A DNA stretch of 64,000 nucleotides from a virus, in IMG/VR virus record IMGVR_UViG_3300046524_000229, positions 1 to 64,000 of that record. The stretch is one strand, 5' to 3'. Position 1 is the stretch's first letter; the number at the start of each line of letters is the position of its first letter. The notes beneath the pieces are model-generated. The model was not told the DNA's origin. It made no database searches and saw only the letters and a program-made list of their open reading frames with translations. The translations under genes and the position numbers were made by a program. Positions 5,783 through 61,700 of the stretch are shown here, in pieces.

Positions 5783-5815
5783 CTTATACCAAAGAATTCG
5801 AATTCAATGGCCGAG
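5783..5815 (-). promoter_or_regulatory. Minus-strand promoter for the E1-like gene
   Basis: The minus strand reads TTTGGTATAAG, an extended -10 (TGGTATAA, plus-strand 5784-5791). It overlaps the last codons of the upstream zinc-ribbon gene. The -35 region is poor. It would give the E1-like gene a start of its own. Confidence 0.5.
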
Positions 5816-10667: not shown

Positions 10668-10744
10668 AGGTACGCCTCATTATGTAAGTATAAAACAACT
10701 AGCGTAGGACAAAAATCAAAAAGCCATATTGTTCTACATTATTC

Positions 10745-10765
10745 TTATACCAAAATAGCGTACTA
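10745..10765 (-). promoter_or_regulatory. Minus-strand promoter
   Basis: The minus strand reads TTTTGGTATAAGAATA, the same extended -10 as at the other leftward units. It lies upstream of the 163-residue gene, in the gap between that gene and the divergent terminase gene. Confidence 0.55.
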
Positions 10766-16741: not shown

Positions 16742-18213
16742 TGTCTAATATCATTTCAGGTACCTCCGTCATTTCAAGCACTAATAGTGTTCAGAATGGT
16801 AATGGTACAATCACTCAGACAGAACGATTATTTACTATTCGTCCTCGCGGTTCCAATACGGAAGACGTGGGAGGAGGCAATAGAGGCAGCCGTGCTTATA
16901 TCCGTATACTGTCAACAGATCCTACCACTTCTCTTAACCGTAAGACAGGCGTAAATGAAGGGCTGGGAGGTACATCCCTGTCTGCTAGCGGGGGTCCTCT
17001 CGATGCTGCCTTGAATGGCAATAACGCATACGGTGGCTACGCTAACTTCTTCGTTACAGATGTGCGTTGTGCATTGGACGAGAAACTGCAGATCACTGAA
17101 ACCTTTGGCGATGGTGAGGTTGCGTACTTCTTTGGCCGTCAGCCTATGTTCATGAACGTTTCTGGCTATATCTTCGATAGTGATGACAATAGCTGGTTCG
17201 TTGAGTTCCTGAGTATGTATGGTCAAGCCTTGCGTGGTACAGAGTTAGCTCGTAATTACGAACTGGTTAAGCTTGTGCTGCCTAACATGTACGTTATCGG
17301 ATCTTTCACGCACATCGATTGGGGCCAAAACTCGCAAAGGGATCAGGACATTCAGTTTTCGTTCCAATTCCTGATCAAGCAGCTTGTACCTATTGCCATT
17401 CGGATGCCGGGCGTACCTACGTCTTCAGACAGTGGGTTGATTAACTTCAACGCTATTCCTACATTCCAGACTCAAGCACAGATCAACACGGTAAAATCGA
17501 GCTTCTCAGCATTGCAAAGTGCTATCCAGAATCCTTTCTCGACTACTAGCGATATTGCTTCGAGTATTACCGGACTTGGTTCAGGGCTAAGCGCCGGTGT
17601 GACTGCAGATGCATCTACTTTCGGTGTAGGTTCGAATTCGTTTGGGTTCACCACGGATAATAGTTCGGGTAGCAGTCTCGGTTCTGCTCTAAGCAGCGCC
17701 GGAAGCACTATTTCAGGTATCTTCTCAAGCGTGAGTGCAAACCTGACGGGACTACGTGCAAGTCTGTTCTCTCCTATTTATGGCGTATTGTCATCGCTAA
17801 CTAAATTGGTTAAAAACGCAATGGGCTCAGTCACGTCTATTTTCAACGCACTGACAAGTCCAGTCCGTGATATAATCCGGGCTGTATCAGATATCAGTAA
17901 TCAGGCCATAGGTATTGTTAATCTTGTTAACGGTACTATTCAAGGCCTTACAGGTCAAGTTACTTCGATTGATAATCAGGTTCGTATTGCGCTTGGAAAT
18001 CTTAGCAACGCAGCCGGGGTTATCTCTAGCGCACCTAAGACTATCTCTCAGTCATTAGCCGAACTAGTCAATGCTGGAACGTTGCCTATTACGACTGGAT
18101 ACCTACAAAACCGGCCAATGGCAAGCCTTTCTTCATCTGGTACTGCACCATCGAAACTGGCATTGCTTAATTCCGGTGCTAAATACTCAGCTCAATCAGG
18201 CGCATCGTTATAA
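16741..18213 (+). CDS. Tail/baseplate structural protein
   Basis: The protein has 490 residues. The N-terminal half is a beta-rich domain in which aromatic and charged segments alternate (for example EVAYFFGRQPMFMNVSGYIFDSDDNSWFVEFL near 125-155), resembling hub-proximal proteins of contractile tails. The C-terminal half is Ser/Ala/Gly-rich with helical stretches. It is coupled by one-base overlaps to both neighbours, so the products are probably made in fixed ratio. The exact baseplate component is not certain. Confidence 0.6.
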   Translation: MSNIISGTSVISSTNSVQNGNGTITQTERLFTIRPRGSNTEDVGGGNRGSRAYIRILSTDPTTSLNRKTGVNEGLGGTSLSASGGPLDAALNGNNAYGGYANFFVTDVRCALDEKLQITETFGDGEVAYFFGRQPMFMNVSGYIFDSDDNSWFVEFLSMYGQALRGTELARNYELVKLVLPNMYVIGSFTHIDWGQNSQRDQDIQFSFQFLIKQLVPIAIRMPGVPTSSDSGLINFNAIPTFQTQAQINTVKSSFSALQSAIQNPFSTTSDIASSITGLGSGLSAGVTADASTFGVGSNSFGFTTDNSSGSSLGSALSSAGSTISGIFSSVSANLTGLRASLFSPIYGVLSSLTKLVKNAMGSVTSIFNALTSPVRDIIRAVSDISNQAIGIVNLVNGTIQGLTGQVTSIDNQVRIALGNLSNAAGVISSAPKTISQSLAELVNAGTLPITTGYLQNRPMASLSSSGTAPSKLALLNSGAKYSAQSGASL

Positions 18214-19070
18214 TGAGAAGTTATTCAAGTCTTTTAGTTTTCGAAGATATTTTCGATTTCGTTCCTAATCAGAACGCAGATGTAACAAGTCTTGCGTCTA
18301 TGATTTTCACGCCCAATGTGCCAATCGTAACGAATGATTGTCAGACAACTCTCGGCCTCTTCCAAACTGTTAACTACGAACTGGAAGGGGCTATTGAATT
18401 GGCTACTGGACTTGTTATAAGCCGGGACAGAATTGATAATCTTCTATTCCACGGAATTTACGAAATTGCTACACGAAGTCTATCTACTTGTATTGCACCT
18501 GGCGGTGTATGTCAGGCATGTTATTCTGCCAGTAATCCTAGAATTACGTCGATTCCCGCAATAGGATCCCGTGTAACTATTCAACCGGAATACATTTCTT
18601 CGACTGACGTCATCAAGGCTTCAGCCGGGGATACGACGTGGCCGCTAACTATCGCCGATGGCACGTATCAGTTCACGTATGTCTATGTAGATGGTGTGCT
18701 TCAAAATACGTCTGCATATTCAATTTCTAATTCCATATTGACGTTCAATACTCCTCTCGCAGCAGATAATAACGTTGTTGTGCATTACTCAAGTTATAAC
18801 AGGGCTCCGTACCTTGTCTTCCTAGCCACGACGTACTCGGGGTCTATGCTTGGCATGAAGCCTCTTCCGTCACAGCTGCTTCCTATAAGATCGTTGCTGC
18901 TAGGGTCATTGGTCCCTCAGAATAAACTAGAATTAATTGTAGAGTATACAAAAGAGGTCACTCAGATTCCTGAAGACTATCGAACCTATATCGACTCAAT
19001 TAATGACACGTTCGAAAAGGCATTGTATACTATTGCGATAAATTGTATCTATGCTAACGTGACGTCATAA
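18213..19070 (+). CDS. Baseplate-associated hypothetical protein
   Basis: This 285-residue beta-rich protein has a central segment (TYQFTYVYVDGVLQNTSAYSI) that resembles a small surface beta domain found in many phage tail proteins. A cysteine cluster (C92, C99, C102) precedes it. It overlaps both neighbouring genes by one base and probably belongs to the baseplate. Confidence 0.55.
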   Translation: MRSYSSLLVFEDIFDFVPNQNADVTSLASMIFTPNVPIVTNDCQTTLGLFQTVNYELEGAIELATGLVISRDRIDNLLFHGIYEIATRSLSTCIAPGGVCQACYSASNPRITSIPAIGSRVTIQPEYISSTDVIKASAGDTTWPLTIADGTYQFTYVYVDGVLQNTSAYSISNSILTFNTPLAADNNVVVHYSSYNRAPYLVFLATTYSGSMLGMKPLPSQLLPIRSLLLGSLVPQNKLELIVEYTKEVTQIPEDYRTYIDSINDTFEKALYTIAINCIYANVTS

Positions 19071-22300: not shown

Positions 22301-22316
22301 GGAGTAAAATAGCACT

Positions 22317-22532
22317 ATGACAACGACAAACACAGATGGATTCGCAGCCCTTGGGGAAACTAAGGGCGGTTTGCCAAGAAGCGTTAACATCCCTACGAAT
22401 ATCTCAAGTATGTTATCTGGGACTTCGTGGGCAGATGACGTGTTCGTATACCAGAAATTTGCTGAGAAGTTGCAGGCATATCTTGTTGGTTATGTAAATG
22501 CAATCTACTCGGATCATAACGTATATCTATAA
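22317..22532 (+). CDS. Small baseplate-region protein
   Basis: This 71-residue protein is of unknown function. It is preceded by AAGGAG at 22299-22304 and TAAAATA at 22305-22311. It overlaps the sigma-factor gene by one base, so the two are translationally coupled. Confidence 0.55.
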   Translation: MTTTNTDGFAALGETKGGLPRSVNIPTNISSMLSGTSWADDVFVYQKFAEKLQAYLVGYVNAIYSDHNVYL

Positions 22533-23248
22533 TGACTGAAGAAACTACAAAACCAGAATTTATCGACTATCGGTCAAAAGACCGGGAGTTGTTTGACAAA
22601 TGGAAAGAGACCGGCAGTAAACGGGATCTTGGTAATTTGATGCATCAACTCTCAGGGGTTATTTATCAGGAAGTCAATAGACAGTCTGGAAGTCTACCCA
22701 ATGCTGCGCTTAGTGCAGAGGCTAAAACTTGGGCTATCAAAGCCATCAATACGTATGATCCTAGTAAAGGGACTCAGCTGTCTACGCACGTAACTAATTA
22801 TCTCCAACGTGTACGTCGCCTAAATTACAAGTATCAGAACGCAGTTAGACTTCCTGAAAATATGCAGCTTATGTATAGGGATTGGAATTCGGCTAATCAG
22901 GAATTGTCCGATCAGCTTAACCGTGATCCTACTGAAGAAGAACTCGCTAAGCATTTAGGTTGGACAAAGCCTCAAGTTATTAAATATAGAAACTCTCTGT
23001 ACTCGGATCTCGTTGAATCAGCTTCGGATAAACCAGCTGAATTTACTCAGTACAATGAAAGCGCAGAACTTATGGCCTATCTCATGAGTCAACTGACGCC
23101 TGATGAAAAATTTATTCTTGACAACGTTAAACTGATGCCTGCCCCGCAAATCGCTGCAAAGCTTGGTGTTAACATCAATCGATATAACTATATCAAGACG
23201 CAACTTAAGAACAAAATCGAAAAAATTAAGCAGGATATTGGACTCTAA
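22532..23248 (+). CDS. Sigma70-family RNA polymerase sigma factor
   Basis: The protein has 238 residues. A region-2-like segment spans about 60-115, with AIKAINTYDPSKGTQLSTHV corresponding to the Y-x-x-xxG-x-x-F-x-T-x-(A/V) core. A region-3 helix set has the phrase NRDPTEEELAKHLGW (130-144), and a region-4 HTH spans about 185-235 (LTPDEKFILDNVK, then QIAAKLGVNINRYNYIKTQL). Such proteins redirect host RNA polymerase to phage promoters. Its place inside the baseplate operon suggests a late-gene or delayed regulator, possibly acting at the TAAAATA motif. It is coupled by one-base overlaps on both sides. Confidence 0.85.
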   Translation: MTEETTKPEFIDYRSKDRELFDKWKETGSKRDLGNLMHQLSGVIYQEVNRQSGSLPNAALSAEAKTWAIKAINTYDPSKGTQLSTHVTNYLQRVRRLNYKYQNAVRLPENMQLMYRDWNSANQELSDQLNRDPTEEELAKHLGWTKPQVIKYRNSLYSDLVESASDKPAEFTQYNESAELMAYLMSQLTPDEKFILDNVKLMPAPQIAAKLGVNINRYNYIKTQLKNKIEKIKQDIGL

Positions 23249-23640
23249 TGGCAATCGATACAAACTCAGCCATCGGGCAAGCTCAGACGATTTATAATCA
23301 ACTCGCCCAGTACTTTTCAGATATGCAATCATATTTGAATAATGGCGGAGCTTGTCCAGATTTCACGACGTATATTACGTCCATTGATTATTCCGAGCTT
23401 CATCGTTTCACCGACCAATCTCAATCAGGTAGTGCAAACTATCCTAACGGCTCTGCTATCGAGAGCGTTCACCACATCTCTTCGGTGTTGCGTGAATTTG
23501 CCCTCCGTACTAAAAATAAAGCTGCATACTATTCAGATGGCGCGGGAGAAGCTACGGATGAATCCAATTACTATGCAACGCTCAAGACTGCTACTGTCAG
23601 TACCTTGAACGGAATCGTTACCCCTGGAGGTGGTATTTAA
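23248..23640 (+). CDS. Baseplate-region hypothetical protein
   Basis: This 130-residue protein is probably helical, with a Gly-rich ending (TPGGGI). It is coupled by one-base overlaps to the sigma factor and to the gp25-like gene. A structural or assembly role is likely from context. Confidence 0.55.
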   Translation: MAIDTNSAIGQAQTIYNQLAQYFSDMQSYLNNGGACPDFTTYITSIDYSELHRFTDQSQSGSANYPNGSAIESVHHISSVLREFALRTKNKAAYYSDGAGEATDESNYYATLKTATVSTLNGIVTPGGGI

Positions 23641-24173
23641 TGGCCGGATTAAACTTTAATTTCAATCAGCGTATTGGTACTACCTCCAACCTTCCAACTG
23701 GCGCAACTTATGATATGCTATTTATTTCATTTCCAGGGGGCTTTCCACAAAGCCAACTCGTATTTGAAATAGCAGATACTCCTCGTAAGGTGACCGGGCT
23801 TCAGAAAGTAGCTCAGATGTTTTTAAAAATCCTGTTTACTCATAAAGGATCTAACGTCATATTCCCCCAACAGGGAACTTACTTTTCTGATTATGTTGTT
23901 AATGCTAATCGTGTAGAAACAACCGATACAACATTGACTTCAGATTTAACTGAACAGATTACCGACGCTCAAACACAATGTCAGTATATTCTTAATACGA
24001 CTGATTCAGATGTAGCAAGCCAGCTTCAAACTGTGCAATTGCTTGGTATCGACGTTTCTCAGGAAAGCATTGTTATGTATTTGAGAATTCTCACCAACGC
24101 AGGGGCAATGGCTAGTATTTCAGTTCCCTTCCCCCAACTCGATCTCCCTCTTACAGATCAAATGCAAACGTGA
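23640..24173 (+). CDS. Baseplate wedge protein, gp25-like
   Basis: The protein has 177 residues. The segment FLKILFTHKGSNVIFPQQGTYFSDYV (about 60-86) matches the core of the gp25/W wedge family, in which a helix leads to a G-S-x-x-x-x-P-x-x-G turn. These proteins join the wedge to the sheath. The next gene is a baseplate J-like wedge protein, as in many myoviruses. Confidence 0.65.
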   Translation: MAGLNFNFNQRIGTTSNLPTGATYDMLFISFPGGFPQSQLVFEIADTPRKVTGLQKVAQMFLKILFTHKGSNVIFPQQGTYFSDYVVNANRVETTDTTLTSDLTEQITDAQTQCQYILNTTDSDVASQLQTVQLLGIDVSQESIVMYLRILTNAGAMASISVPFPQLDLPLTDQMQT

Positions 24174-49394: not shown

Positions 49395-49420
49395 AAACGG
49401 CCTCTGTCTGTACGTCAGCC

Positions 49421-49445
49421 TTATACCAACAATGCCAGAAAAACT
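49421..49445 (-). promoter_or_regulatory. Minus-strand promoter next to the palindrome
   Basis: The minus strand reads TTGGTATAAGG. It lies at the edge of the inverted-repeat locus and fixes the start of the 260-residue gene. Confidence 0.5.
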
Positions 49446-54760: not shown

Positions 54761-54790
54761 CTTATACCACAAACTACGTAAAAATTGAAA
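54761..54790 (-). promoter_or_regulatory. Minus-strand promoter for the HTH gene
   Basis: TTCAAT, 17 bases, then TGGTATAAG on the minus strand (plus TTATACCA at 54762-54769). It has the same layout as the promoters of the ubiquitin-like gene and the Y-RNA array. Confidence 0.65.
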
Positions 54791-59727: not shown

Positions 59728-59773
59728 GGTCTCTCCTTGTGTAGGCATAAAAGTATTGTTACTACCAATACTC

Positions 59774-59800
59774 TTATACCAAAACAGCTTTCGTTACTTG
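59774..59800 (-). promoter_or_regulatory. Minus-strand promoter
   Basis: The minus strand reads TTTTGGTATAAGAGTATTGG (plus TTATACCA at 59774-59781), upstream of the coiled-coil gene, with TTCAAG 18 bases before the -10. Confidence 0.55.
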
Positions 59801-61616: not shown

Positions 61617-61675
61617 GATTCTTATAAGTCCTTGACGTTAGTATAGAAAAAGTAAACTACTCTACTCCAAAACTC

Positions 61676-61700
61676 TTATACCAAAAATACTTCAGAAAAG
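61676..61700 (-). promoter_or_regulatory. Minus-strand promoter
   Basis: The minus strand reads TTTTTGGTATAAGAGTTTTGG (plus TTATACCA at 61676-61683). It drives the leftward group starting at 61616. Confidence 0.55.

Follow-up and report, generated by a model that had tools for sequence, protein, structure and literature searches.

A sigma70-family factor in a phage baseplate operon, predicted to be packaged with a phage RNA polymerase for early transcription

Background

Two reviews divide large phages into those that encode a multisubunit RNA polymerase without a sigma factor and those that encode a sigma factor without a polymerase (PMC7824862, PMC7598289). Polymerases of the phiKZ and AR9 type are phage-encoded and multisubunit, with one form packaged for early genes, as is proposed below for the phage studied here; they consist of four or five chains, and no sigma factor has been found for them (PMC7824862), AR9 using instead a protein, gp226, that has no sequence similarity to sigma factors (PMC7598289).

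Precedents exist for the packaging of a polymerase and for phage-encoded sigma factors, and two papers list both kinds of protein in phage particles without following up the observation. Mass spectrometry of virions of Salmonella phage Arash identified 116 virion-associated proteins, including metabolic enzymes; among them are the sigma factor Gp10, homologous to that of the present locus and encoded in the same gene order, and the polymerase subunits Gp206 and Gp216. The authors suggested either injection or carry-over for the listed proteins, and proposed no promoter, partner or family for Gp10 (PMC10585845). The second published case is Yersinia phage YerA41, whose particles were likewise reported to carry subunits of a phage polymerase and a sigma factor expressed late (PMC7354516).

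Sequence and relatives

The window (the whole stretch of 64,000 nucleotides that was analysed) belongs to the record of a virus fragment of 107 kb. The best annotated relative of this record is Arash, whose Gp10 is 45% identical to the sigma factor of the window and occupies the same place in the gene order, followed by Vibrio phages D69, D148 and D181. The 107-kb record is collinear with the interval 67-172 kb of a 181-kb relative, G007, both ends of which have a short direct repeat in common. G007 and G010 are close relatives of the window, and each has both polymerase genes. A DNA-level search of a phage collection with a 20-kb region gave no match. Gene calls came from a simple ORF script.

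Sigma factor and baseplate operon

The orf at 22532-23248 on the plus strand has an ATG start and encodes a protein of 238 amino acids. The original prediction that this protein is a sigma70-family factor with regions 2, 3 and 4 all visible is borne out by profile matches from Pfam, PHROG and the PDB and by an AlphaFold model. The protein matches Sigma70_r3 above the curated cut-off of Pfam (3.4e-7), which reported no separate match to region 2 or region 4, and PHROG 351, "RNA polymerase sigma factor" (9.6e-15). When six relatives were combined into a profile, it matched SigA, RpoS and FliA chains of the PDB, the best at 1.5e-8. The AlphaFold model, built with 17 relatives as input (mean pLDDT 77.5, pTM 0.44), matches structures of sigma70, sigmaS and SigA over residues 11-238. 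Domain 2 of the model superposes at 2.0 Å over 87 residues, and the rmsd of the whole model is approximately 20 Å because the orientation of the domains differs. Sequence, profiles and model place the domains in the order 2, 3, 4 (approximately residues 11-105, 109-157 and 176-236), and all three are retained in homologues at 26-99% identity. The protein is a member of the sigma70 family, the match not being due to chance. In region 2.3, the STYATWW of SigA is aligned with STHVTNY, several of the aromatic melting residues having been replaced.

The translational coupling of the gene on both sides to small genes of the baseplate region was likewise predicted correctly: at both junctions the sequence is TAATG, such that the sigma start codon overlaps the stop codon of a 71-aa gene (22317-22532, plus strand) and the sigma stop codon overlaps the start codon of a 130-aa gene (23248-23640, plus strand). 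The upstream gene belongs to a size class of 65-99 aa that is kept in most relatives. The downstream gene is the positional homologue of Arash Gp11, and the next gene, encoding 177 aa with weak baseplate-wedge similarity (23640-24173, plus strand), is that of Arash Gp12; both Arash proteins were reported in virions, Gp11 with 2 unique peptides (PMC10585845). In most relatives the gene order is hub protein, 65-99 aa, sigma factor, 121-133 aa, 166-177 aa and large baseplate-type genes, and it is kept down to 34% sigma identity; because of this conservation, the sigma gene does not owe its placement to chance in a single genome. In the three most distant relatives (L062-L064) the sigma gene lies among genes of one strand but has different immediate neighbours, and the immediate neighbours in G017 and G018 differ from those of the window group.

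The same operon encodes, at 18213-19070 on the plus strand, a homologue of Arash Gp7, which was found in virions (PMC10585845). Within it is a zinc module with homology to beta' of RNA polymerase, specifically to the second zinc-binding domain (best PDB sequence match 2e-8). The 60 PDB matches listed for the module are RNA polymerase chains, Cys43, Cys93, Cys100 and Cys103 are invariant in 12 homologues, and the Foldseek matches comprise both beta' and tail proteins of phages. A match of 18306-18581 to the C-terminal part of beta' (beta'C), which at first suggested a fragment of a polymerase, is the zinc module inside this baseplate-operon protein.

Phage RNA polymerase

The host polymerase core had been assumed to be the partner of the sigma factor; the relatives encode a core of their own. 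By Pfam, Arash Gp206 (1525 aa) joins beta and the N-terminal part of beta' in one protein, the remainder of beta' (beta'C) being Gp216 (606 aa). Homologues are found in Vibrio phages D69, D148 and D181 and in IMG/VR relatives; they are of the bacterial type, with beta and beta' fused or split, and in G017 and G018 they form a single chain of approximately 2100 aa. The catalytic aspartate and lysine motifs are retained in most of the polymerase sequences read (GDFDGD in G007), and were not found in the G018 polymerase with the patterns used.

Several features of these genes may be noted separately. In G007 (L042 895-8403), four orfs, some of them tail-fibre-like, separate the beta and beta' genes that are fused in Arash; Rfam identified no intron that would account for the split beta gene of G007. 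In D148 and D181, a homing endonuclease is located in the region of the beta gene. In Cobetia phage Carin-5, an annotated RNA polymerase sigma factor (L120 1044-1634) directly adjoins the polymerase genes; that annotation gained no support from Pfam.

Among related records, the polymerase is present in all 12 that bear the sigma factor and measure at least 145 kb, and the sigma factor in all seven that bear the polymerase and measure at least 169 kb. Of the related records with either one and a length of at least 145 kb, 19 of 19 have both, a count that does not represent 19 independent events because D69, D148 and D181 are close kin, as are G007 and G010. Four shorter polymerase-bearing fragments without the sigma factor are uninformative. 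A profile search of seven phages with other multisubunit polymerases recovered no member of the window's sigma family. No phage polymerase was found in the record of the window, which is consistent with its being a fragment, because the polymerase of G007 lies at 21-38 kb and the record corresponds to 67-172 kb; loss of the polymerase from the window's phage was not accepted, fragmentation being sufficient to account for its absence from the record.

The clamp helices, the site of sigma domain 2, are retained in the phage beta' sequences that could be aligned. In these the position of E. coli beta' R275 is occupied by V, L or I, and the position of the sigma factor that aligns by eye with D403 is alanine; we take R275 and D403 to be residues with roles at the bacterial interface. 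The flap-tip stretch of beta, where sigma domain 4 normally docks, is missing from 10 of the 10 phage beta sequences aligned, so that domain 4 probably docks in a manner different from that of bacteria.

Virion proteins

Arash Gp10 was represented in virions by 24 unique peptides and 467 spectra with 100% coverage, Gp206 by 3516 spectra and Gp216 by 1210; the second sigma factor of Arash, Gp196, is not in Table 2 of virion proteins (PMC10585845). Expressed per residue, the spectra amount to 2.00 for Gp10, 2.00 for beta'C (Gp216) and 2.31 for beta (Gp206), versus 0.60-1.85 for the neighbours of Gp10 in its operon, a crude measure by which proteins with 2 unique peptides still reach approximately 1 spectrum per residue. 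By unique peptides per residue, Gp10 ranks first among 43 virion proteins of our own choice from the Arash table; the likely carry-over enzymes of the list mostly have 2-3 unique peptides. The sigma factor is thus seen in virions in Arash alone, and by analogy the window's phage would also package its sigma factor.

Promoter motifs

A sharp, promoter-like motif, TGGTATAAG-5N-T(-1)R(+1), is common to the window's contig, G007, Arash, G013 and G014, in which it precedes genes of the strand opposite to that of the structural genes. With numbering that assumes the hexamer to be the -10 element, the aligned sites of the contig, G007 and Arash read T(-15)G G T A T A A G(-7), with T at -1 and a purine at +1, and have a weak element, TCAA, at -35 to -32, even though the flap-tip stretch is missing from the phage beta. 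Position -7 has G (in G014 often C) and seldom T; host sigma70 has a strong preference for T at this position. Counts of GGTATAAG on the structural and opposite strands (plus/minus) are 0/19 in the contig, 1/42 in G007, 1/28 in Arash, 0/33 in G014, 1/42 in G013 and 0/8 in G017, a strand bias with binomial p values from 4e-4 to 2e-12 over the six genomes, or from 2e-6 to 2e-12 if G017 is omitted. Variants with a similar start-site pattern are TGTTATAAG in D69 and GGGATAAG, which occurs beside GGTATAAG in G017; G018 is too GC-rich and divergent for good motif testing. Within the window, TGGTATAAG occurs at six sites, all six on the minus strand (chance expectation 0.44 for both strands), which are predicted early promoters: 5783-5791 (positions -15 to -7), 10744-10752, 49420-49428, 54761-54769, 59773-59781 and 61675-61683. 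The label "early" for the genes of the opposite strand is based on strand and gene content.

The sole structural-strand GGTATAAG of Arash (L001 11588-11595) shortly precedes gp9-sigma and recurs in three close relatives, L057, L058 and L061. It may reflect autoregulation, or it may be due to chance, being 4 bases from the start codon and not seen in the window group.

TAAAATA is a motif of the late strand, separate from TGGTATAAG. It is not over-represented in the window overall (8 copies versus 11.7 expected), but all eight copies are outside called genes and seven of the eight are on the plus strand. The copy at 22305-22311 (plus strand), just upstream of the small gene that precedes the sigma gene, is a candidate late promoter of the sigma operon, and TAAAATA is found before this small gene in the window group. 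The motif is enriched upstream of plus (structural-strand) genes in the contig, G007, D69, G013 and Arash; its strand bias is significant in G007, G013, G014 and D69, and not in the window's contig or Arash alone. In Arash and G007 it is likewise found ahead of the gene for beta'C, as would be the case if this gene is late.

The candidate factor for TAAAATA is the second sigma factor (Arash Gp196, L022 37657-38694, with counterparts in relatives), which is present in the large relatives searched with the exception of G017 and G018, where none is detectable. Both of these genomes carry the window-type sigma factor and essentially no TAAAATA, although their high GC content (0.52 and 0.63) may lower the counts. 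This combination points to the second sigma factor for TAAAATA and the window-type sigma factor for TATAAG, with the reservation that composition may contribute to the absence of TAAAATA. G017 has the window-type sigma factor and the opposite-strand motif, yet neither a detectable second sigma factor nor TAAAATA, and it is largely from this genome that TGGTATAAG is assigned, tentatively, to the window-type sigma factor.

Functional assignment

The sigma family, its co-occurrence with the polymerase and the two motifs with their strand bias are directly supported, and presence in virions is published for Arash. We consider it probable that the sigma factor is made late, packaged with the phage polymerase and used in the next infection to initiate early transcription from TGGTATAAG promoters. 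Its role would be to initiate transcription exclusively for the phage-encoded multisubunit RNA polymerase; the two would be produced late, together with the structural proteins, incorporated in the virion and brought by it into the next host. Because the sigma factor of a relative is packed in the particle with a phage RNA polymerase, it is probable that the phage delivers by injection a transcription machine that is ready for use. The injected holoenzyme would read early promoters that consist of an extended -10 element, TGGTATAAG, with a start approximately 7 bases downstream and a weak TCAA at -35, and these would control expression of the non-structural genes, which lie on the opposite strand. 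The second phage sigma factor, similar to Arash Gp196, would then probably serve the late TAAAATA promoters. We infer that the sigma factor binds the phage core and that the genes downstream of TGGTATAAG are early.

Of the two roles originally proposed, packaging for the next infection is supported by the presence of the Arash homologue in virions with phage polymerase subunits, whereas that of a late sigma factor sustaining its own operon is disfavoured by the shared motif on the opposite strand and by the two genomes that have this sigma factor without a second one and lack TAAAATA. Such a late factor, redirecting host or phage polymerase to the TAAAATA promoters of structural genes, would be in keeping with the position of the gene in a late operon, with the nearby upstream TAAAATA at 22305 and with enrichment of the motif upstream of plus-strand genes in five genomes. 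It is nevertheless unlikely: G017 and G018 argue against it (subject to the caveat of their GC content), the second sigma factor, present in the other large records searched, is a better fit to TAAAATA, and a factor that acts only late has no need of packaging, yet the Arash protein is in virions.

Alternatively, the injected sigma factor could hijack the host core for early transcription, leaving later genes to the phage polymerase. The host core would be at hand at once, the sigma factor resembles SigA and RpoS, and the promoters have ordinary bacterial geometry; but Arash virions contain the phage core, too, in abundance and at a level similar to that of the sigma factor, the two genes are together in all 19 large records, and the substitutions at the positions of R275 (V, L or I in the phages aligned) and D403 (alanine, by eye) do not favour the bacterial interface, so we regard this as improbable. 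That the sigma fold has become a part of the tail or baseplate with no role in transcription is suggested by its position among baseplate genes, one of which (18213-19070) already has a polymerase-type zinc module, but is very hard to reconcile with the retention of every sigma domain across 26-99% identity and with a sigma-type promoter motif common to the genomes that carry the gene. We therefore continue to prefer a packaged sigma factor that acts with the phage polymerase on early promoters, and lean slightly towards the broader view that a lineage of phages of approximately 145-197 kb injects a complete bacterial-type holoenzyme (beta-beta' and its own sigma70-family factor) with private early promoters that have G at -7. 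If so, early transcription would be independent of the host polymerase.

Comparison with known systems

T4 gp55 is a phage late sigma factor, and the AT-rich late element of T4 (TATAAATA-type) resembles TAAAATA. Unlike the sigma factor proposed here, gp55 works with the host core, and an analogous role fits the second sigma factor better. The virion RNA polymerase of phage N4 is an enzyme of a different, single-subunit type that needs no sigma factor. Its likeness to the present system is that it is injected to transcribe early genes (PMC4496689). The traits of phiKZ-type polymerases, absence of a sigma factor and splitting of beta and beta' each, are not those of this lineage, in which a sigma factor is present and beta is fused to the N-terminal part of beta' in Arash. 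YerA41 differs in having its polymerase in separate genes, and its reported sigma factor was not recovered by profiles of the window's family. What the window's relatives offer is a candidate for a simple holoenzyme, together with a promoter prediction, and because Arash is a cultured phage, the partner, the promoter and independence of the host are directly testable. Contrary to the division drawn in the two reviews (PMC7824862, PMC7598289), this lineage has both a sigma factor and a polymerase, and in one isolate, Arash, both are in the particle.
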